Positions 1 through 14,217 of a stretch of 34,835 nucleotides of DNA are shown one piece after another. The stretch comes from Candidatus Nanopelagicaceae bacterium (lineage in GTDB: Bacteria > Actinomycetota > Actinomycetes > Nanopelagicales > Nanopelagicaceae), in assembly GCA_018883365.1 (NCBI GenBank), contig VEQF01000011.1, positions 1 through 34,835 of the forward strand, read 5' to 3'. Position 1 is the stretch's first letter. Every line of letters starts with the position of its first letter. The notes beneath the pieces are model-generated. The model saw nothing but the letters and a program-made list of their open reading frames with translations, had not been told where the DNA came from and did not search any database. Both the position numbers and the translations under genes were made by a program.

Positions 1-956
1 AGGCATTAGCCCACGCAGAGTTTCATACCCCCGCCCAAGTTGGCAGAAAATTGCGCTCTCTTTTTGCACAGGCCTCTCCTGACTCATTTGAAGAAACGGT
101 GGCTATCGCGCGAGATACAAGATCAGTCCGTATGTATCCAGAAAGTGATGGCATGGCCACGATAATTGCTTTGCTTCCTGTCGAGGATGCTCAGACGGTT
201 ATGCTCGCTATTAATTCTCTTGTCTCACTAAAAGATTTAAAGTTTTCTGAAAAAGTTAAAGGTCAAAATTCTTGCGACTCTAGTCAGATTAATTCCAGCC
301 AGATGAATTCCAGCCAGATTAATTCCATTAAGATGAATTCCAGTCAGATAACAAATATCGCGAATCGTAATGATGGATTAACCAAACGCAACATTGAAAT
401 GAAAAGAGCAGATGCTTTGTCGGAAATTTGCGGAGATCTATTGGCCCGAATTTCAGATGAATATCAGCCGCACCGTCGCCCAGTTTCAATTAATATAACC
501 ATGGATCTTCACACCGCACTTGGGCTAGCGGATAACCCAGCAGAGTTGGCAGGGTATGGACCAATACCAGCATCGATTGCTAGACAGTTGGCTAGCGACG
601 GAAAATGGCGGAAATTTATAACAGATCCCGGCACGGGAAATCTCTTAAGTTTTGGCAGAGAGAGCTATATTCCTCCCCAATCTTTAGCTGATTTCATCGC
701 CGCTCGGGATCGAATTTGCAGATTTCCCGGCTGTAGTCAGCCAGCTCGCGTTTCCGATATAGATCACGCTATTCCTTGGGAAGATGGTGGTGAAACCTCA
801 GCCGAGAACCTTGGCTTACTGTGCAGACGCCATCACAGAATGAAAACTCATGACGGTTGGCGGCTTCAAAGCAATCCCGATGGTTCATGCAACTGGGTCT
901 CCCCTGCCGGGAAGGAGATTTTCGTGCCTGCCAGACCTATAAATGAATCTGCGTGA
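1..956 (+). CDS. DUF222 / HNH endonuclease-domain protein (13E12-type), 5' truncated by window edge
   Basis: The reading frame is open from base 3 at the window edge, so the true start lies upstream; a TTG at 51 is internal. The visible part (about 318 residues) begins in a DUF222-like region. After a low-complexity Ser/Gln/Asn/Met stretch encoded by 15-bp repeats (282-356) it ends in an HNH nuclease domain. There the pattern CRFPGC...DIDH...ENLGLLCRRHH gives the zinc cysteines, the Asp-His pair and the final HH. DUF222/HNH proteins are common multicopy genes in Actinobacteria (the 13E12 family); their role is unsettled, with nuclease or mobile-element association proposed. The low-complexity insert is unusual for the family. 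Family assignment is confident; activity is not shown. Confidence 0.88.
   Translation, partial: ALAHAEFHTPAQVGRKLRSLFAQASPDSFEETVAIARDTRSVRMYPESDGMATIIALLPVEDAQTVMLAINSLVSLKDLKFSEKVKGQNSCDSSQINSSQMNSSQINSIKMNSSQITNIANRNDGLTKRNIEMKRADALSEICGDLLARISDEYQPHRRPVSINITMDLHTALGLADNPAELAGYGPIPASIARQLASDGKWRKFITDPGTGNLLSFGRESYIPPQSLADFIAARDRICRFPGCSQPARVSDIDHAIPWEDGGETSAENLGLLCRRHHRMKTHDGWRLQSNPDGSCNWVSPAGKEIFVPARPINESA
282..356 (+). repeat. 15-bp in-frame tandem repeat inside the DUF222 gene
   Basis: Five consecutive 15-bp units (starts 282, 297, 312, 327, 342) vary around AGCCAGATTAATTCC; the fourth and fifth are degenerate. The period is a multiple of three, so the gene gains five-residue steps (SQINS / SQMNS) without a frameshift. 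It lies between the DUF222-like part and the HNH domain and probably encodes a flexible linker. Confidence 0.85.
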
Positions 957-3055: not shown

Positions 3056-4456
3056 TTATTTCTTCGCAATTAGAGAAGCCAATCCACCGAGTACTTGAAG
3101 CGACTTTTCCCCAATTTGAGATGCTGGAACTTCGAGATCTGGAGTTATGCCAACTTCATCAATTACTCGACCACTTGGTGTTCGATAAAGCGCAACAGTT
3201 AACTCAATTTTTGAGCCATCGCCAAGAGTGACAAACTCCTGAACCGAGCCTTTTCCATAACTGCGCTCTCCCACTACTACGCCACGATTTCTATCCTGAA
3301 ATGCTCCCGCCAGAATTTCAGCTGAACTCGCAGTATTTCGATTTATCATCACAATTACTGGGGCTGTGACTGGATCTGGATTTGATGCTTTAAATAGGCG
3401 CTCTGCTCCGTTTACTTGGTATGAAACGATTACACCTTTTTCAATAAAAATCTCCGCAACTTTAACAGCCTCTTCAATCAGCCCTCCGGGATTGTTGCGT
3501 AAATCAAGAATCACCCCCGAGTCGAATTTCAGATTTTCAAGAGCGGCCTTTACATCTTCTGCAGTTCCTGAGCTAAATGATGTTATTTCAATAAAGGCAA
3601 TTCCGTCACTAACCTGGCTAGCCTCAACGGTCCTAACCGCAACTTTCTTAGTCGATAAGCTAACTAGAACCTTTTTATCATCTCTCGAAACCACAAGTTC
3701 AATTCGTTTTCCTACGGCACCTCTTATCAAGGCAATAACTGAAGTTAGCGATGCCCCTCGGACATCTGTTCCATTCACCTCTAGAACCTGATCGCCTACC
3801 AAAAGATTTGATTTCTCTGCAGGTGATCCAACTTGGATAGAGGAAATCTTTATCTGGCCGCCTCGAGATTTACTAAGCCACACTCCGACGCCTGTGAACA
3901 TACTCGAGCTCTGCTCGCGCAACACCTGTAAAGCGCTCTTGGGAAAGTAATTGGCCCATTCATCTCCAGTGGCCTTCAATACACCTTCAATAGCAGCCCG
4001 CTCCAGAACTCTACGATCGAGCTCCTTTGCTCCTGTGTTCAAAATTGTTTCGATTGCGTTGTCGACGAGTGCATCACTATTTCGAGTTCCAACTTCGACT
4101 CCGATTGCAAATATTAATCCAGCCGAAATTGCCGCAATAGAGCCCTGTCTAATCTTGTTTCCAGCGGTTATATTCCCGCTTGCTACTCGTCTTGGTCCTT
4201 GATTAATAGCTGAGGTTAATTCGCTATTTAAGTATTGATTTAAGTTAACTTCGACTTCGCGTGTTTTGATCTTTGCGGAAGCTGTTTTGTTTAAATTCTG
4301 CTGGCCACGTATTACGGTTGGGCGACTCTTATTATTTTTCGATGAGGAACTGATAGATTGCTTAGTTGATTGCTTAGTTGATTGCTTAGTTGATTGCTTA
4401 GTTGATTGCTTAGTTGATGAACCGCCTCTTGCCTTCTTGTCTTGCAAACCAGCCAC
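3056..4456 (-). CDS. S41-family C-terminal processing protease (CtpA-like), membrane-anchored
   Basis: The 466-residue product has a disordered N-terminal tail with five STKQ repeats (residues 14-33), one membrane segment (about 104-120), a PDZ domain (about 187-268) and an S41 protease domain. The serine/lysine dyad is visible: Ser377 in NRNTASSAE and Lys402 in GERSYGKGSVQ, with the usual 25-residue spacing. The substrate-site motif LDLRNNPGGL is also present. Such proteases act outside the membrane on protein C-termini; the substrate is unknown. The start is GTG with AGAAGGA about eight bases upstream. It sits between ftsX and smpB, with a hairpin between it and ftsX, so it may be transcribed partly on its own. 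Confidence 0.93.
   Translation of the reverse strand: MAGLQDKKARGGSSTKQSTKQSTKQSTKQSTKQSISSSSKNNKSRPTVIRGQQNLNKTASAKIKTREVEVNLNQYLNSELTSAINQGPRRVASGNITAGNKIRQGSIAAISAGLIFAIGVEVGTRNSDALVDNAIETILNTGAKELDRRVLERAAIEGVLKATGDEWANYFPKSALQVLREQSSSMFTGVGVWLSKSRGGQIKISSIQVGSPAEKSNLLVGDQVLEVNGTDVRGASLTSVIALIRGAVGKRIELVVSRDDKKVLVSLSTKKVAVRTVEASQVSDGIAFIEITSFSSGTAEDVKAALENLKFDSGVILDLRNNPGGLIEEAVKVAEIFIEKGVIVSYQVNGAERLFKASNPDPVTAPVIVMINRNTASSAEILAGAFQDRNRGVVVGERSYGKGSVQEFVTLGDGSKIELTVALYRTPSGRVIDEVGITPDLEVPASQIGEKSLQVLGGLASLIAKK
4356..4415 (-). repeat. 12-bp coding tandem repeat (STKQ x5) in the S41 protease tail
   Basis: Five exact 12-bp units (GATTGCTTAGTT on the plus strand) starting at 4356, 4368, 4380, 4392 and 4404 encode the Ser-Thr-Lys-Gln steps near the N-terminus. 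Near-perfect identity suggests recent expansion or ongoing slippage; the period keeps the frame. Confidence 0.93.
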
Positions 4457-7506: not shown

Positions 7507-7582
7507 GTGCAATATTCAAAACGATTGAACTTAATTGCTGAAGGCCAGCTTCGCGACTAGTGGTAGTGCATTACAAGAGGAA

Positions 7583-7684
7583 CTGGGTGAATGAAGAAGT
7601 AAAGTGAGTAGAGGTGCTGGGTGAATGAAGAAGTAAAGTGAGTAGAGGTGCTGGGTGAATGAAGAAGTAAAGTGAGTAGAGGGT
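7583..7684. repeat. 34-bp tandem repeat, three units, between prfB and the pilus cluster
   Basis: Three 34-bp units start at 7583, 7617 and 7651, each beginning CTGGGTGAATGAAG; the copies are almost identical, the last diverging after GTAGAGG. It fills about half of the 215-bp gap. The array lies between the prfB start and the end of the TadG-like gene. No gene is seen in the gap. Confidence 0.92.
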
Positions 7685-7709: not shown

Positions 7710-8264
7710 CTAGCGATATTGCGAAACTATTGTTACAGCTATTCTATTTGTGTATGACTCTAACTTAAGGACTCTTGTGGCGAATGGCAGCAAATGCTCT
7801 TGCCTAACTTCTGCTTTTAACACACGCCCGTTGCACTGAAAATCAGTAATCTCTGGAATGGCCAGAGGATCTTTGGTATTCAAGAGCTGCAATTCTCTGT
7901 AAAAAACCCGTCCGGCATCACTGCAATTTATAGGTACGAGTTGAATATCTTCTCCAAACGAAGTAGAGGTAGGAACTTGGTAGTAATAAACAAATTCATC
8001 CAACTCTTGAGCAGCTTTTGAAAGTGCGGCCTCGGTCAAGTTGATCAAATCTCGTCGCGCCACGTAAGTCGAAGCTACATTTGCAATCACAAAAATCGCC
8101 AACATCGCCAGAGTAAAGTAGAGCGTAATCAATGGTGTAATTGATCCTTCTTCTCTGTTACCCGATTCTGTATTCCGCACTTTACGGGCGTCCATGCTCA
8201 GATTTTTGCGGACATTTTTGGTTTTCTCGCTATTAAAAAAATTGGCCAATAAATTGCTCATCAT
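7710..8264 (-). CDS. TadG/TadE-like small pilus-cluster protein, 184 aa
   Basis: The last gene of the pilus cluster. After a polar N-terminus (residues 1-39) the sequence NREEGSITPLITLYFTLAMLAIFVIANVAS forms a pilin-type hydrophobic helix directly after an acidic-Gly motif. A region follows that resembles the post-helix part of TadE/TadG proteins (ARRDLINLTEAALSKAAQELDE), then an extracytoplasmic tail with two Cys (about residues 111 and 143). Such proteins are minor pilin-like components of Tad pili. Its ATG overlaps the previous gene's stop (ATGA), so translation is probably coupled. The subtype (TadE versus TadG-like) is uncertain. Confidence 0.65.
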   Translation of the reverse strand: MMSNLLANFFNSEKTKNVRKNLSMDARKVRNTESGNREEGSITPLITLYFTLAMLAIFVIANVASTYVARRDLINLTEAALSKAAQELDEFVYYYQVPTSTSFGEDIQLVPINCSDAGRVFYRELQLLNTKDPLAIPEITDFQCNGRVLKAEVRQEHLLPFATRVLKLESYTNRIAVTIVSQYR

Positions 8265-8779
8265 GATTCCAAATTCGGCATTTCACGCCACTTATCAACA
8301 TACGTTCTTGCAATTGCATTAGCTTTTCTACTTTTTGAGTCGCTAACGCTTTCGTTCACTTCAAAACTCCTGAAAAGTTCAAGCTCTACCAGCGAACCGG
8401 GGGTCAGGCACTTCTCTGCACCGCACTTTATGTTGTAGGTAAATCCGTACTTACCGCCGGAGACTCTCGAATTAGAATTTTCAATTTCGGCAAATCGATC
8501 TAGAACATACTTCACTCTTGTATGTCCCATTTGAAGATCTGAGGAGGTGGCGAAGGCTCTAACCGCTTGGCGGGCTATATGTGAAACATTTATCTCTTCA
8601 CTAGCGGTGGAATGCAGGGCATTAAAAAAGAGAATGGCAGGCAGAAATAATGGAGTCGCCACCATTACAAATTCCGTTACCGCGGAGCCTTTTTCATCAA
8701 ACTCCATGCCACCCCGACCAAACTTTCTTCTCAGGAATGAAAGTGTTGAGAAAAATTCCCAGTTATTCACTAATCGCAA
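8261..8779 (-). CDS. TadE-like minor pilin, 172 aa
   Basis: The segment FDEKGSAVTEFVMVATPLFLPAILF is a typical TadE start: Gly, a short polar run with Glu, then a hydrophobic helix. It is followed by SHIARQAVRAFATS, the usual post-helix amphipathic stretch, and a globular extracytoplasmic part with two Cys (KCGAEKC). The longest frame starts at TTG 8779, overlapping the previous gene by 17 bases; an ATG at 8707 (MEFDEKGS) is a reasonable alternative and neither has a strong ribosome site. Its stop overlaps the next start by four bases. Likely a minor component of the Tad pilus. Confidence 0.75.
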   Translation of the reverse strand: MRLVNNWEFFSTLSFLRRKFGRGGMEFDEKGSAVTEFVMVATPLFLPAILFFNALHSTASEEINVSHIARQAVRAFATSSDLQMGHTRVKYVLDRFAEIENSNSRVSGGKYGFTYNIKCGAEKCLTPGSLVELELFRSFEVNESVSDSKSRKANAIARTYVDKWREMPNLES

Positions 8780-9131
8780 TTGCTTCAGCTTTCATGAGCG
8801 GATTTTGCGTAATTAAATTCGAGACTCTTGGTGAGGAAATCTCTGAGTTGGCAAGAATTAGCTCTCCTCCGCCAGGCATTGATTGATATTTGTAATTGAG
8901 GGTCCGATTTGGGTAAGCCTGTCGCTCCCCTTCACTTTTATCTCCCAAAGCAAACTTAGTTACCATACTTTGCAATTTCATAGTTTCAACCACCTGGTAG
9001 CTTCCCGAAATCACTAACTGCAAAGTAAGCAGGAAAAAGGCTGTAGTCGGAATTATGGTCAACCCGGCTTCAATTGAACCTCGTTCTGAAAGGAATGCGC
9101 GATAGGCGTTTCTACTTCGATTAATTTTCAC
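8763..9131 (-). CDS. TadE/pilin-like small protein, 122 aa
   Basis: SERGSIEAGLTIIPTTAFFLLTLQLVISGSYQVVETMKLQSMV (residues about 14-56) is a pilin-type helix preceded by an acidic-Gly motif, with Glu near the start of the helix. The C-terminal half is polar. The GTG start at 9131 overlaps the preceding stop as GTGA, so translation is coupled. It has the size and position of the TadE-like gene in other actinobacterial pilus clusters (cf. the Mycobacterium Rv3655c position). The exact role is inferred. Confidence 0.65.
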   Translation of the reverse strand: MKINRSRNAYRAFLSERGSIEAGLTIIPTTAFFLLTLQLVISGSYQVVETMKLQSMVTKFALGDKSEGERQAYPNRTLNYKYQSMPGGGELILANSEISSPRVSNLITQNPLMKAEAIAISE

Positions 9132-9706
9132 CGAATTCCATTCATTGCATCGAGAGAGTTTTTAAGAATTGCACTTAAACGAGGTGCGGCAATAGTCCAA
9201 ATTGCGGTAACTAAACCAGTGGTCATTAAAACCACCAATACCCAGCCAGGGACATCTCCTCTTTCATCAAAACTATAAGTCCGGGATTTGACACTGGATG
9301 AATCAGTTTTACCTAATTCGCTTCTATCTCGTCCCTCTTTCTTCTGTTCATCATTAATTTCAATCTCAGTTCTTTCTCCGAGAAATCCATCATTTTTTGA
9401 ATGTGCGTCAGCAACTTTGTATTGGGCGGCAATGTTGTTGGACTGTGCGTCAGCAACTTTATATTGGGCGGCAGAATTGTTGTGATGTATGTTAGTGTCG
9501 TAGAGATGGGTGTCAGTATTGTTGGATTGGGCTCCAGAATCGTTGAGATAGACACCAAAATTATTGTGATTAGAGATGGATGATTCAGGTCTTATATTTA
9601 TCAATTCATGGAATTGAGCACGAACTTTTCCTATGTATCCTTGTAAATCTGACTCAATTCTAAATATCTGCTTTTTTGTGTTCACAACGATTAATTCAAG
9701 ATTCAT
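9128..9706 (-). CDS. Flp-pilin-like protein with long repeat-rich N-terminal region, 192 aa
   Basis: Only the last 43 residues look like a pilin: DERGDVPGWVLVVLMTTGLVTAIWT...LKNSLDAMNGIR, a single hydrophobic helix after an ERG motif. The preceding ~148 residues are polar, Asn/Gln/Asp/His-rich, and contain a 14-residue duplication (AAQYKVADAQSNNI). Normal Flp pilin leaders are far shorter. The start seems right, because ATG 9706 has AGGAG seven bases upstream. The Glu usual at mature position +5 of Flp pilins is missing if cleavage follows ERG. It sits exactly where the major pilin lies in actinobacterial Tad clusters. Alternative: a membrane-anchored protein that only resembles a pilin. Confidence 0.65.
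   Translation of the reverse strand: MNLELIVVNTKKQIFRIESDLQGYIGKVRAQFHELINIRPESSISNHNNFGVYLNDSGAQSNNTDTHLYDTNIHHNNSAAQYKVADAQSNNIAAQYKVADAHSKNDGFLGERTEIEINDEQKKEGRDRSELGKTDSSSVKSRTYSFDERGDVPGWVLVVLMTTGLVTAIWTIAAPRLSAILKNSLDAMNGIR
9402..9485 (-). repeat. 42-bp in-frame duplication in the pilin-like gene
   Basis: Two 42-bp units beginning TGTGCGTCAGCAACTTT (9402 and 9444) encode a 14-residue step repeated twice. Degenerate ATTGTTG-containing copies continue to about 9560. The period preserves the frame. Confidence 0.8.
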
Positions 9707-9977
9707 AGCTTCACTCCTATAGTTTGTTGGACTTTTGCGATCCTCTTCATAGTCATCGACTTGATGCTAATCTCGGGGCTCTAGTTCGGTGCTTCAGTTC
9801 GGTGCTTCAGTTCGGTGCTTTAGTTCGAGATAGGCAAATGATTGCTTTGTGCTGACTTATTTCGGATAAGTTCGCGCTTTCTGTGGAAAACCCCGGTTGT
9901 GGAAATCAATTACCTCAATCTCTTCCTTCACACTTCCCTCCATCTTCGATTTAGAACTCCCTCTTCAACGCACATGA
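9707..9977. other. 270-bp gap between tadC-like and pilin-like genes
   Basis: No gene is seen. The part next to the pilin-like start holds its ribosome site (AGGAG, minus strand). The middle carries the 13-bp tandem array. A promoter for the pilin subset is plausible here because the gap is the only large one in the cluster, but I cannot place one with confidence. Confidence 0.5.
9783..9830. repeat. 13-bp tandem repeat upstream of the pilin-like gene
   Basis: AGTTCGGTGCTTC is repeated with starts at 9783, 9796 and 9809 plus a partial copy at 9822 (the third ends TTT). It lies 77-124 bases upstream of the pilin-like start and could affect its expression. Confidence 0.88.
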
Positions 9978-10763
9978 TCACAAGAACGAACCCAGTTGAT
10001 TGAATGACGGCCAAAGCGCGAAAAGAATTGAGATGGGAAGAATGAGGAATACAACTGGAATCATGAGTCCAATCTCAGCTTTTCCTGCTTTCTGCATAAT
10101 CTCCGTTTTTTGTGCCAAACGAGAATCTCGCACCTGTGAAATCAGAATCGGACTCAACGCGGATCCTCTTTCAATTCCGAGAATTAAGCTTGTTACGAAG
10201 CGTCGGAGAGAATTTGACGCATATTGATTTTTCAAATGGTCTAGCGCTTCAACGACTGACCATCCCTTTTTAATATCTTCAACAACCCTTCTGAGCGCAA
10301 GCGAACTAACTGAGTTTGATCGCTCTGATAGAAGCTCGATTGATCTTGCAGGGCTTATTCCTGAAGAGATCAAAATAGTCAATAGTTGAATTTGAGCTGG
10401 TATTTCTGACTCTATTTCCCTTGTAATTTGGGCTAGAGATTGCTTCTCTCTTTTTCTCATTATTGAAATGAATGTAGTCAAACATAATAGAAGAAAGACG
10501 GTAGGCAAAAACAACCTAGTGCCTTTTGTCGCCAAAAAAATCCCCGCCAGAATCAAAAATGTGATCATAGAGAAATAGATAGGTAGGATTTTTTTTCTTA
10601 CAACTCGGGCTGAGTTGTAGTTAAAAACATTCTTCTGCAATTGACTCCAGCGATTTCTAGAATTCAATTCATCGAAACTCTCTTCACTGATAATCCAGAT
10701 ACCCCACATCAAGATTGGAGCCATTGCCGCCAAAGACAGGGTGAAGAGATTTGAGTTAAACAT
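9978..10763 (-). CDS. tadC: Tad pilus platform protein, TadC-like (T2SS F domain)
   Basis: An inner-membrane platform protein of the Tad/Flp pilus machine, working with TadB and the CpaF ATPase. The 261-residue product has an N-terminal membrane segment (about 5-25), two segments at about 60-100, a cytoplasmic T2SSF domain (about 110-220) with the typical ESEIPAQIQLLTILISSGISPARSIELLSE pattern, and a final segment (about 230-255, LMIPVVFLILPISILFAL). ATG at 10763, 21 bases after the tadB-like stop. TadB and TadC are told apart here by order and length only. Confidence 0.88.
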   Translation of the reverse strand: MFNSNLFTLSLAAMAPILMWGIWIISEESFDELNSRNRWSQLQKNVFNYNSARVVRKKILPIYFSMITFLILAGIFLATKGTRLFLPTVFLLLCLTTFISIMRKREKQSLAQITREIESEIPAQIQLLTILISSGISPARSIELLSERSNSVSSLALRRVVEDIKKGWSVVEALDHLKNQYASNSLRRFVTSLILGIERGSALSPILISQVRDSRLAQKTEIMQKAGKAEIGLMIPVVFLILPISILFALWPSFNQLGSFL

Positions 10764-10784: not shown

Positions 10785-11651
10785 TCACCTAAGCGCCCTT
10801 GCCGGCCGCGGTAACTTCCCAACTTTTTCCATCCAGAGATATGCGACCGCGGTCATTACTACGCCCAACATCAAAACGCCCAAACCTGAGCTAGTTGCGA
10901 AAGCCTCTACAGTAGTTTTTTGGGAGGAGAGTAGAACTAGTAGTAGCCATGGCGCCGCACTTGCTAAGGCAGCTGAGTTTCTAATCCATCCAAACTTTGT
11001 CCTTATTTCTTCCACAACATCTATATCGTCTCGGACAAATTCAGATAGAAGCCGAAGTGCGTTATTTGAATCCTTACCTCCGAATTCACGGGCCAGAAGT
11101 AAGGTTTCAAAAACTTGATCTGATACTGCGGAGTTCAAAAGACTTTTTTCCTCAAACACGGAAACCTCTAGAGATTTTTCAGCGCGAACACCGCTTTTGA
11201 TTCGATTGAAAGAAGGTCGAAGTAGATGCGGGCCATGGTCAGATAGCGATAGCAGCGCATCGCTAATCGAGACGCCAGATTGCAGAGCAGAAACCAAAGA
11301 ATCTATGGCTTCAGGCCAAGCTAATTCACGGGCTCTTTGAACTCTCTCTATTCGATTCTTGTTAATCAAGAATGGTATAGAGGTTGCAAGTAAAGCTATG
11401 GCTGCTGCAATTGATGCAGAGCCGATTAACAAAAATAGAGTTGCATAAACTGTTGCGGCAGTAGCAATCATTATGAGAATTTGTTTTGAATCCCTCGATG
11501 CCTTCTGCCCGCCTTTCTTACCTCCGGTACGCAATGCTCTCCAATGCGAATCGGGAAGCTCCTTGGAGAGAATCATGTATCCCAATCCACATAGAAATGC
11601 GCAGCTCAATCCAACTAAGGATGCTTGATTAGATGCAGATACCGCTAGCAT
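10785..11651 (-). CDS. tadB: Tad pilus platform protein, TadB-like (T2SS F domain)
   Basis: The longest frame extends to 11735 and would overlap the ATPase gene by 77 bases. I prefer ATG 11651, which gives 288 residues, follows the cpaF stop by seven bases and has AGGTGA at good distance. Membrane segments are at about residues 9-27, 60-95 and 233-280. The T2SSF domain between them carries ELAWPEAIDSLVSALQSGVSISDALLSL and LLAREFGGKDSNNALRLLSEF. It pairs with the next gene as the platform on which the CpaF motor assembles pilin. Confidence 0.9.
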   Translation of the reverse strand: MLAVSASNQASLVGLSCAFLCGLGYMILSKELPDSHWRALRTGGKKGGQKASRDSKQILIMIATAATVYATLFLLIGSASIAAAIALLATSIPFLINKNRIERVQRARELAWPEAIDSLVSALQSGVSISDALLSLSDHGPHLLRPSFNRIKSGVRAEKSLEVSVFEEKSLLNSAVSDQVFETLLLAREFGGKDSNNALRLLSEFVRDDIDVVEEIRTKFGWIRNSAALASAAPWLLLVLLSSQKTTVEAFATSSGLGVLMLGVVMTAVAYLWMEKVGKLPRPARALR

Positions 11652-11658
11652 TTCAAAT

Positions 11659-12690
11659 TCACCTAGCAATTCCCTTGCGATACTTGCCCTGTTCCCAACT
11701 GTAAACATATTCAATCTCAATGTTGAAGTTCTCAACTCTGCTATTTACTTTGCATAACTGAAGTAGGCGCCGATCACCGTTTTCATCCAAACCAACATGA
11801 ATCACATAATCGATTGCGCTTGCCACAGTTGGAGTTATGAAATCCTGGGTAATGTTTTCTCCGGCCAGCATAGGAAGGACTTGAAGTTTTCTTATGGCCT
11901 CCCGCGCCGAGTTGGCATGAATTGTTGCCATCCCAGGAATGCCAGAATTCAAAGCTATGAGCAAGTCCAGCGATTCTGCTTCGCGAATCTCTCCGATTAT
12001 CAATCTTGAAGGCCTCATTCGCAGAGCCTCCTTAATTAAACGCCTAATACTGACTTCTCCGACACCATCTAAGCTCGCACTCCTGGTTTGCATCGCAACA
12101 CAATCAGGCACCCTAGGTTTCAATTCAAATACTTCTTCTATGGTTATGACTCGTTCAGAGATTGGAACGGTGCTTGCTAAGGCATTGAGCAAAGTTGTTT
12201 TTCCAGCTTGAGTAGATCCACTGACCAGAATGTTTTTCCGGCTCTGAATTAAATGTTCGAGATACGATCTGAGTTCTTCATCGAATACCCCCAGCTCCAT
12301 AAGTCCGGTCAAATTCTTTCCGCGCATCAAATGTTTTCGAATGTTTATCGCCCAATGCTCTGCCGTTATTTGAGGAATTGTTATGTGCAATCTGCTCCCA
12401 TCAGGCAATCGCGCATCTAAAAACGGATGGGCTAAGTCAATCCGCCGACCACACCACATCAAAATTCGATCCATAATTGCTTGCAGCTGCGCAGCGGTTA
12501 AGACAATATTGGTTAGTTCGGATTTCCCTTTGCGGGCAACAAAAATGCGTTGAGGTGAATTGATCCAAATCTCCTCAATCTCAGCATCGTCAAGAAGTGG
12601 CTGAAGGGCTCCATATTGAGAATTTGACTTGGATGTCGAAGAATCCATTTCTACTGCTGCTACGCGCTTTAATGATGGTGATATGTTCAC
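11659..12690 (-). CDS. cpaF: Tad pilus assembly ATPase CpaF/TadA
   Basis: A hexameric secretion ATPase powering pilus assembly at the cytoplasmic membrane. In 343 residues: an N-terminal domain (about 25-130, IEEIWINSPQRIFVARKG...FLDARLPDGSRLHI), Walker A GSTQAGKT (158-165), the Asp box ITIEEVFEL (about 183-191), Walker B RPSRLIIGEIR (226-236) and the His box ATIHANS (255-261). The frame starts at GTG 12690, with an in-frame ATG at 12648; neither has a strong ribosome site. It heads the cluster; no CpaE/TadZ-like or prepilin peptidase gene is adjacent. Confidence 0.94.
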   Translation of the reverse strand: MNISPSLKRVAAVEMDSSTSKSNSQYGALQPLLDDAEIEEIWINSPQRIFVARKGKSELTNIVLTAAQLQAIMDRILMWCGRRIDLAHPFLDARLPDGSRLHITIPQITAEHWAINIRKHLMRGKNLTGLMELGVFDEELRSYLEHLIQSRKNILVSGSTQAGKTTLLNALASTVPISERVITIEEVFELKPRVPDCVAMQTRSASLDGVGEVSIRRLIKEALRMRPSRLIIGEIREAESLDLLIALNSGIPGMATIHANSAREAIRKLQVLPMLAGENITQDFITPTVASAIDYVIHVGLDENGDRRLLQLCKVNSRVENFNIEIEYVYSWEQGKYRKGIAR

Positions 12691-12883
12691 TGGGCATGCT
12701 TAGGCGTTCGACCACCGACATCCATGCGCGAAAGAACTCCAAGCTGTTGATAACAGAAAGTTCCGCCGATTCGGTATTCGGGCATCTACTTTCCGTGTAT
12801 TCAGGAGTTAAGGATTCATTGCCAAATACTCGTTTTCGCTCTCTGTTGATGGGCGGGTAGACTACGGGCAACAAGTGAACATG
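12691..12883. other. Gap between cpaF and tRNA-His, no gene recognised
   Basis: About 190 bases hold the presumed promoters of both the divergent pilus cluster and the tRNA gene. Reading frames crossing it overlap the tRNA and lack protein-like composition. Confidence 0.4.
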
Positions 12884-12959
12884 GTGGGCGTAGCTCAGCT
12901 GGTAGAGCACCCGGTTGTGGTCCGGGATGTCGCGGGTTCGAGCCCCGTCGCTCACCCCA
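12884..12959 (+). tRNA. tRNA-His (anticodon GTG)
   Basis: A cloverleaf can be drawn: GTGGGCG pairs with CGCTCAC, the D-arm is AGCTCAGCTGGTAGAGC, the anticodon arm CCCGGTTGTGGTCCGGG centres on GTG, and the T-arm is CGGGTTCGAGCCCCG. The 3' CCA is encoded. An extra G at 12883 opposite C73 can supply the G-1 required by histidyl-tRNA synthetase. A five-T run (CACTTTTTC) follows at once. Confidence 0.96.
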
Positions 12960-13041: not shown

Positions 13042-13190
13042 TTTAGAGGCTGATTGGTCGATTTAGAGGCTGATTGGCTCAGTAAATAGATATGGCCGTT
13101 AACTTTTAAGAACTACTCATTAACAGCAACTAATTAACGGCAACTAATTAACAACTACTTATCGACAATTACTCATTAACAACTACTTAG
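13042..13190. repeat. Imperfect short repeats between tRNA-His and the secreted nuclease
   Basis: TTTAGAGGCTGATTGG occurs twice at a 20-bp step (13042, 13062). It is followed by a series of imperfect 11-17-bp steps with AACTAC/AACTAA and ATTAAC from about 13110 to 13190. The last copy runs into the stop codon of the nuclease gene (13176), so its C-terminal codons may derive from the repeat. No gene is seen in 12960-13175. Confidence 0.7.
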
Positions 13191-13868
13191 AATTCGAGTC
13201 ATTGTTTCCTTTTCTGACTTAGTAACCCAAAGACCATATTTCGCCTTTACCTTAACCTGTAGCGCCACATAATTGCATCGGAAAGATTTATTTGGCGGAA
13301 GCCAAGTTGCTGCATCTCCATCGCCCTTCTGTGAATTGAGCGATCCCTTTACTGCCAACAAATTTAGAGGATCATTTGCAAATTCTGTCCGAGTCTTTAG
13401 ATGTGCTTTGAATATTCCAGTTTGCCATGCATTAGATAATGAAACCACGTGATCAATCTGGACTAACATGCTAGTTCGCTCGCCGCGCACAAATTCAATA
13501 ACAGTATTTGAAAATGGATCCAATAACTTTCCAGTCTCAACTACACAATCCCGCGTTTTAGCTCTAAAAACAATATCTGTTAAATCGCGTTTTAGAATGT
13601 CATTTCTAGTATCGCAACCATTTCTATCAATATCTGACCACTGAGGACCGAACGCGCTTCGTGAGTAACCCGTTTTGGGAGCTCTTCCCTTTACTGGAAT
13701 TTGTTCTAGCGTCTGAACTAGCTCTTCAAATTCGATTTTCGCTTGTATTGCATCTGACTTCGCATGTGGTACTTGAATTCCAATGCTAAAAATAATGTTC
13801 AGAGCGAGTACAAATAGAGCAGATCGTGAATTGGCTCGCCTAAAGCTCTCCTGCCAAATCGACCTCAC
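13176..13868 (-). CDS. Secreted HNH-type nuclease (DUF1524/GmrSD C-terminal-like), 230 aa
   Basis: An N-terminal hydrophobic segment (about residues 16-31) ending near PHAKSDA reads as a signal peptide or anchor. The mature part has the pattern of secreted actinobacterial HNH proteins: GYSRSAFGPQWSDIDRNGCDTRNDILKRDL (about 67-96), then IDHVVSLSNAW with the catalytic DH (about 139-140), and DPLNLLAV...LNSQKGDGDAATWLPPN (about 167-193). Three Cys in these regions may form disulfides. It probably cuts nucleic acid outside the cell, for nutrient use or competition. The GTG start at 13868 has no clear ribosome site. It stands alone between two tRNA genes on the other strand. Confidence 0.85.
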   Translation of the reverse strand: MRSIWQESFRRANSRSALFVLALNIIFSIGIQVPHAKSDAIQAKIEFEELVQTLEQIPVKGRAPKTGYSRSAFGPQWSDIDRNGCDTRNDILKRDLTDIVFRAKTRDCVVETGKLLDPFSNTVIEFVRGERTSMLVQIDHVVSLSNAWQTGIFKAHLKTRTEFANDPLNLLAVKGSLNSQKGDGDAATWLPPNKSFRCNYVALQVKVKAKYGLWVTKSEKETMTRILSSC

Positions 13869-14024: not shown

Positions 14025-14097
14025 GGGTTGTTAGCTCAGTTGGTAGAGCAGGTGACTCTTAATCACCGGGTCGTAGGTTCGATCCCTACACAACCCA
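14025..14097 (+). tRNA. tRNA-Lys (anticodon CTT)
   Basis: GGGTTGT pairs with ACAACCC over seven bases, with A73 at 14097. The D-arm is AGCTCAGTTGGTAGAGC, the anticodon arm GGTGACTCTTAATCACC centres on CTT, and the T-arm is GTAGGTTCGATCCCTAC. The 3' CCA is not encoded (CCC follows), unlike tRNA-His, so it must be added after transcription. Confidence 0.96.
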
Positions 14098-14115
14098 CCC
14101 AGCATTTTTCCCACC

Positions 14116-14168
14116 CTGCACTTTTTCTCACACTGCACTTTTTCTCACACTGCACTTTTTGCCACCCA
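14116..14168 (+). repeat. 17-bp T-tract repeat following tRNA-Lys
   Basis: CTGCACTTTTTCTCACA recurs at a 17-bp step from 14116, 14133 and 14150 (the third ends TTTTTGCCACC). Each copy carries a T5 run like the one after tRNA-His. The array sits where tRNA transcription should stop. Confidence 0.8.
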
Positions 14169-14217
14169 GCATCTGTTCAGACAGGCAATATCGGCAGTAA
14201 TTAAAGCCGAACGCTAA

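Follow-up and report, generated by a model that had tools for sequence, protein, structure and literature searches.

The gene at 9128–9706 on the minus strand of the window, the whole 34,835-nucleotide stretch analysed here, encodes a 192-residue protein that stands at the extreme of a conserved Tad family and is not a new kind of system. We identify this family as a conserved Tad component without a model in Pfam or NCBIfam and call it GDVPGW, a name coined in this analysis for proteins with the recognition motif [ED]RG/DVPGWVL. What is unusual here is the length of the leader, the repeat-driven growth of leaders across the whole family and the apparent lack of a Glu5 pilin. A normally short and probably removed front piece has reached ~150 residues by repeat duplication, the extreme of a family-wide trend. 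The host is a Nanopelagicaceae MAG (Ca. Planktophila-related) of 1.25 Mb and 92.6% completeness, in which the gene occurs in a single copy between the TadC and TadE-like genes of the only detected tad locus. Literature listings on Nanopelagicales, Nanopelagicaceae and acI pili, tad and DNA uptake yielded no paper treating this gene, and the motif GDVPGW was not found named in the literature searched.

The long reading frame and its start

The frame is real and is almost certainly translated from the ATG at 9706, which is preceded by the SD sequence AGGAG 7 nt upstream. The original prediction had taken a strong ribosome site at this position and a continuous frame as signs that the long form is produced; the SD sequence, the open frame and the codon signal bear this out. 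The chance of finding 150 open codons is 2e-5 from base composition, and 2 of 20,000 Markov-1 simulated sequences (~1e-4) remained open over that length. Of the six frames, the leader frame alone is free of stops and alone scores positive for codon usage, with a coding signature that spans codons 41–150. A promoter and terminator scan returned signals at or below chance.

In-frame ATG, GTG or TTG codons are found at residues 1, 8 and 35, and the next, at residue 157, already falls within the membrane helix. Initiation near residue 140, which had been raised as possible evidence against the long form, would therefore require a non-canonical codon, and we rejected an internal start because no ATG, GTG or TTG lies between residues 35 and 157. 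It is highly improbable that the long frame is an annotation artefact, with translation of a short form alone from a start near the core: other members of the class do usually have short leaders, as this explanation would have it, but the SD sequence sits at ATG 9706, the coding signature extends over codons 41–150 and the repeats in relatives' leaders are all in frame. Relatives with only the short form had been named as a second possible objection. Many relatives do carry a 35-residue leader; they do not refute translation of the long form here, because leader length varies freely and comparable leaders show codon-level constraint.

A conserved core with Trp at position +5

Only the last ~42–50 residues are well shared among relatives. 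In the present protein, the core comprises residues 151–192 (DVPGWVLVVLMTTGLVTAIW...; 9128–9256 on the minus strand, with the stop) and, by profile, alignment and AlphaFold2 (AF2), consists of a single transmembrane helix followed by a short tail. The complete gene matches the core HMM with E 6e-36 (6.3e-36), and the pilin-like helix first recognised at the C-terminus is recovered by AF2 at residues 154–189. That these 42 C-terminal residues belong to a conserved family in which Trp at +5 is normal had been overlooked.

Core profile matches were obtained in 15/24 genus genomes, 154/201 family genomes and 225/394 class genomes, with one class match (G400) due to chance. Judging from these matches, the GDVPGW family is conserved across the class Actinomycetes. 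Gly(−1), Asp+1, Pro+3, Gly+4 and Trp+5 are invariant in 40/40 class loci, which were taken from the better-scoring matches, and in 101/101 distinct family sequences. The weaker matches were checked separately in 25 further low-scoring genomes, where the GD[VI]P[GA]W motif is present in 24 of 26 matches; the two exceptions had the lowest scores and were judged to be chance. Gly(−1) is also kept in 24/24 divergent relatives. The present protein reads [x]GD[VI]P[GA]WV followed by the conserved membrane helix, in keeping with the family definition, with Trp155 at +5 from Gly150 and Val at +6. The absence of the expected Glu at +5 thus stands, with Trp155 in its place; judged by the alignments, it is a family trait, a rule rather than a peculiarity of this protein. 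The GDVPGW core matches no Pfam or NCBIfam model over cut-off and no PDB chain at E<=1.

Repeats, composition and predicted structure of the leader

The leader, defined by the open frame, codon bias and AF2, covers residues 1–150 (9257–9706, minus strand) and would lie on the cytoplasmic side. A region of ~148 residues had been described in front of the helix; the long leader holds, and its length is 150 when counted to Gly150. The 42-bp in-frame duplication seen at the outset is recovered as two direct repeats, 83% identical, at 9393–9434 and 9435–9476 (minus strand, TRF score 134), and a degenerate third copy of 27 nt lies just upstream of the pair (P=0.004, codon shuffles). Residues 39–105 contain 18% Asn, 13% Ala, 12% Ser, 7.5% Asp and 6% Gln; of the description as Asn/Gln/Asp-rich, the Asn part is correct and the Gln part is not.

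The AF2 model, computed from 29 sequences, has a mean pLDDT of 65. In addition to the confident C-terminal helix, it contains a leader helix at residues 3–36 (9599–9700, minus strand, pLDDT ~80–92), which is tentative because alignment depth is almost nil over the leader, mostly low-confidence disorder at residues ~40–150 and a weak helix at residues 89–104. Structure prediction, which had been proposed as a check, therefore gives a helix, a disordered repeat linker and a membrane helix.

The leader has no blastp relative at E<=1 among the ORFs of the compared loci, so selection on it is read from other leaders. An apparent match to locus L165 over residues 32–192 was rejected, since L165 has an ordinary 35-residue leader. 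We also rejected helix 3–36 as a copy of the relatives' 35-residue leader, given a score of −1.4 that was reached by 261 of 500 shuffles, and its amphipathicity is not above that of shuffles (P=0.21); the reading of an old leader helix plus an inserted linker is weak. A Pfam LOR match in the leader (PF04525, E 0.03) fell below cut-off and was disregarded.

Leader length and repeats across relatives

With starts chosen by SD score and 12 loci overridden by hand, all leader lengths are estimates: they amount to 14–33 residues in 38/40 class loci (median 23), the outliers being a leader of 56 residues and a 171-residue TadC fusion, and to 27–150 residues (median 44) in 123 distinct Nanopelagicaceae loci that remained once redundant loci had been dropped. 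In the latter set, the leader has at least 60 residues in 42 loci and at least 100 in 11. Homologues with long N-termini, a search suggested by the original prediction, therefore exist, and the present 150-residue leader is the longest of the 123 and beyond the 14–33 class norm.

Leader kinds are mutually unrelated between lineages, even inside a genus, and a LANLAIYLD-type leader is conserved in the group L012–L015. Groups that can be aligned show leader dN below dS and an excess of third-position changes, with constraint far weaker than in the core. Specifically, leader dN and dS are 0.05 and 0.55 for L152/L158 and 0.19 and 0.64 for L013/L015, and core dN is at most 0.10; the L161 comparisons in this analysis cover 38 codons only.

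Tandem repeats account for 5.9% of bases in leaders, compared with 0.7% in other CDS, 0.8% in the core and 8.9% in the upstream gap. They are present in 14/111 leaders, against 2.3 ± 1.4 expected from length-matched CDS windows, and as 4 of these 14 come from one related group, the effective n is smaller. The period of the best repeat is a multiple of 3 in 14/14 leaders versus 6/17 upstream gaps (Fisher P=1.5e-4). Because repeats in ordinary CDS of the same loci also keep the frame (13/14), this test shows translation and nothing special to leaders. Leaders are translated, yet tolerate repeats at a near-intergenic rate.

In-frame tandem arrays were seen in the leaders of L066, L073, L147, L075 and L078, with a 12-nt unit repeated ~11 times in both L066 and L073 and an 18-nt unit repeated ~8 times in L147. 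One actinomycete seems to carry a natural TadC–GDVPGW fusion: in locus L107 (genome G328; bases 1–894, minus strand of the locus), a TadC-like (T2SSF) protein continues in frame into a C-terminal GDVPGW core, and its T2SSF match breaks off at position 96 of the 125-position profile.

A lineage-specific gain by fusion, which would make the long leader a functional cytoplasmic domain with its own role once released, is improbable. This explanation would accommodate a leader without relatives among those compared, as well as the group conservation of leader kinds such as the LANLAIYLD type, but no Pfam family exceeds cut-off (PF04525 included), AF2 models most of the leader as disorder at low confidence, and the repeat load is close to that of intergenic DNA.

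The tad locus and the apparently missing Glu5 pilin

The genes of the locus lie on the minus strand. A TadA/CpaF-like ATPase (11659–12690; T2SSE, 1.2e-39), the sole T2SSE match in the genome, is accompanied by TadB-like (10785–11735; T2SSF, 6.3e-10) and TadC-like (9978–10763; T2SSF, PF00482, 3.6e-14) genes assigned by Pfam match. After tadC comes a non-coding gap (9707–9977, minus strand) with stops in all three frames and a 13-bp tandem repeat at 9783–9827. On the other side, the start of the TadE-like gene (8763–9131; ...SERG/SIEAGLTII...) overlaps the stop of the 9128–9706 gene by 4 nt; its label rests on position and motif, with no Pfam model over cut-off. A TadF-like gene (8261–8779; ...DEKG/SAVTEFVMV..., Glu at +5), labelled by motif without a Pfam or NCBIfam match, and a TadG-like gene (7710–8264; ...REEG/SITPLITLY...) with a weak PF13400 match below cut-off complete the set. 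The same genome encodes an A24 prepilin peptidase and ComEC.

Beside the tad locus, the window contains a gene for a GmrSD restriction endonuclease C-terminal domain (PF07510, 1.2e-19; 13176–13868, minus strand) and a probably spurious 121-aa ORF (12590–12955, minus strand) that overlaps tRNA-His (12884–12959, plus strand) and the TadA start. Short tandem arrays, mostly intergenic, occur at 977–1207, 2065–2200, 4356–4418, 7576–7682, 13111–13189 and 14094–14171.

TadA is present in 11/12 near-complete family genomes with the core gene and in 0/6 without it, the exception being G115. A TadC-like ORF is kept in 38/40 class loci, and a regex for G-x4-E picked out a downstream ORF in 25/40, two of them doubtful; the present TadE-like protein, used as a query, matches in 0/40. 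In locus L179 (IMCC19121), GDVPGW and the downstream genes are kept, and the ORFs at 522–1136 and 1173–1436, on the upstream side of the core gene, may be remnants. The G115 protein looks identical to that of L179, which suggests the same genome, and a search of G115 with PF00437 recovers no full TadA; this tad locus is possibly decaying. Nanopelagicaceae-type tad genes also occur in the MAG records L153, L154, L164, L198, L202 and L205, whose titles (Bifidobacterium breve, Streptomyces griseus, Streptomycetaceae) look mislabelled.

Profile searches of the host genome returned neither DUF4244 (PF14029) nor Flp_Fap (PF04964). By hand count in the 394-genome class sample, DUF4244 is present in 1/41 Nanopelagicaceae genomes versus 339/353 others. 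Where both genes could be positioned, the core gene and DUF4244 either sit on separate contigs or are 2 Mb from each other in 22/22 genomes, a comparison made by hand on assemblies many of which are fragmented drafts. Three DUF4244 proteins from the class read G-MSTAEYA, with Glu at +5.

These data bear on the idea that the protein is itself the lineage's major Flp pilin and polymerises despite Trp at +5, which we regard as unlikely. In its favour, the gene is the one small pilin-like gene seen in the one tad locus detected, the genome yielded no DUF4244 or Flp_Fap, and the core hardly varies within the family. However, type IV pilin Glu5 mutants form no homopolymers, according to the portion of PMC4471445 used here, and the coexistence of the core with a separate DUF4244 Flp in many class members makes an ancestral major-pilin role unlikely; moreover, in a MAG that is 92.6% complete, a second locus could be missing. 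It is possible, though we hold the idea with some doubt, that Nanopelagicaceae lost the canonical Glu5 Flp and run the Tad machine with a Trp+5 protein as sole small subunit, which would make a filament or pseudopilus without a Glu5 major pilin and with fast-evolving, repeat-grown, cytoplasmic prepilin leaders several times longer than those in the literature examined.

A model for the GDVPGW protein

We consider it reasonably probable that the protein is a prepilin-like subunit of the Tad machine whose overgrown leader is cut off after Gly150 and which acts as a cap, primer, anchor or base component. The ribosome would make all 192 residues. The C-terminal helix (residues 154–189) would then enter the membrane and leave the N-terminal 150 residues in the cytoplasm, where the A24 prepilin peptidase probably cuts after Gly150, releasing a 42-residue peptide. 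As described in part of PMC4471445, prepilin cleavage follows an essential Gly on the cytoplasmic side, and type IV pilin leaders have 6–26 residues. The leader in Nanopelagicaceae would be weakly constrained, so that frame-keeping tandem duplications and indels survive, and in the present genome such events may have enlarged the stretch between helix 3–36 and the cleavage site. The mature peptide probably does not polymerise with itself, because Trp replaces Glu at +5; in the same portion of PMC4471445, Glu5 is dispensable for processing and required for homopolymers. More likely, the peptide works with the TadE/TadF-like proteins as the cap, primer or anchor of a filament or pseudopilus, perhaps with a role in DNA uptake through ComEC. 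Alternatively, the missing Glu at +5 could indicate that assembly of the protein never takes place.

The original prediction had left open whether an unusually long leader is cleaved off or a new anchored protein retains it. The cleaved leader fits better, given the invariant Gly(−1) and the A24 peptidase, and we found no strong positive evidence for the anchored form. It is rather unlikely that the protein is an uncleaved Tad component in which the core is the membrane anchor and the N-terminal part, still attached, serves as a flexible tether or docking arm in the cytoplasm, with TadA or TadC as possible partners. Trp instead of Glu at +5 would agree with it, as would purifying selection on alignable leaders, perhaps beyond the needs of a discarded peptide, and the in-frame fusion of the core to a TadC-like C-terminus in L107. 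On the other hand, Gly(−1) is invariant in all class, family and divergent sets while the residues upstream vary, and prepilin peptidases require this Gly (PMC4471445, same portion). Since Asp+1 to Trp+5 are equally invariant, the conservation of Gly is in itself no proof of cleavage. Leader sequences unrelated between lineages would also be odd for a docking arm.

The family offers a graded set of natural leaders, 14 to 150 residues long, in front of a core that hardly changes. This set makes two points testable: what leader length a prepilin peptidase tolerates, and whether a Tad apparatus can function if its only small subunit lacks Glu5.

Comparison with known systems

The GDVPGW protein resembles Flp/type IVb (Tad) prepilins (Flp1, M. 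luteus Mlut_18170 and DUF4244 proteins, PF14029) in its gene position between tadC and tadE, in a hydrophilic leader ending in Gly, one hydrophobic helix and a tiny mature part, and in the presence of an A24 peptidase in the genome. Compared with the Flp site G/XXXXEY, it keeps Gly(−1) as Gly150, whereas Glu+5 and Tyr+6 are replaced by Trp and Val. Flp prepilins have 50–80 residues; the present protein has 192, and its short relatives fall in the 50–80 range. Unlike Flp, it has no match to PF14029 or PF04964.

A second likeness, in the lack of Glu5, is with type IV tip subunits. In the section of PMC10191384 considered here, the type IV tip complex is capped by a subunit that lacks Glu5 where other subunits have one, as the GDVPGW protein does. 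The mature GDVPGW peptide, in contrast, has no globular domain.

Two tad operons and comEC are reported for the freshwater actinobacteria R. lacicola and A. photophilum in the portion of PMC8591293 drawn on here. The closest parallel in gene order comes from M. luteus, where, in the part of PMC4322843 available, two tad clusters are both required for Flp pili and transformation. The GDVPGW gene shares the position of Mlut_07530 in tad-1, directly after tadC (07520). Deletion of Mlut_07530 is reported there to have abolished transformation, possibly through a polar effect. The later tad-1 genes are described there as encoding TadE/F-like products bearing G/XXXXE[FS], with no canonical Flp, and in our reading of that text and its strain table, 07540 and 07550 are the TadE/F genes. 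The shared position suggests, as a lead, that the GDVPGW protein corresponds to the small tad-1 protein Mlut_07530, and the family may explain the contribution of tad-1 to transformation in M. luteus.
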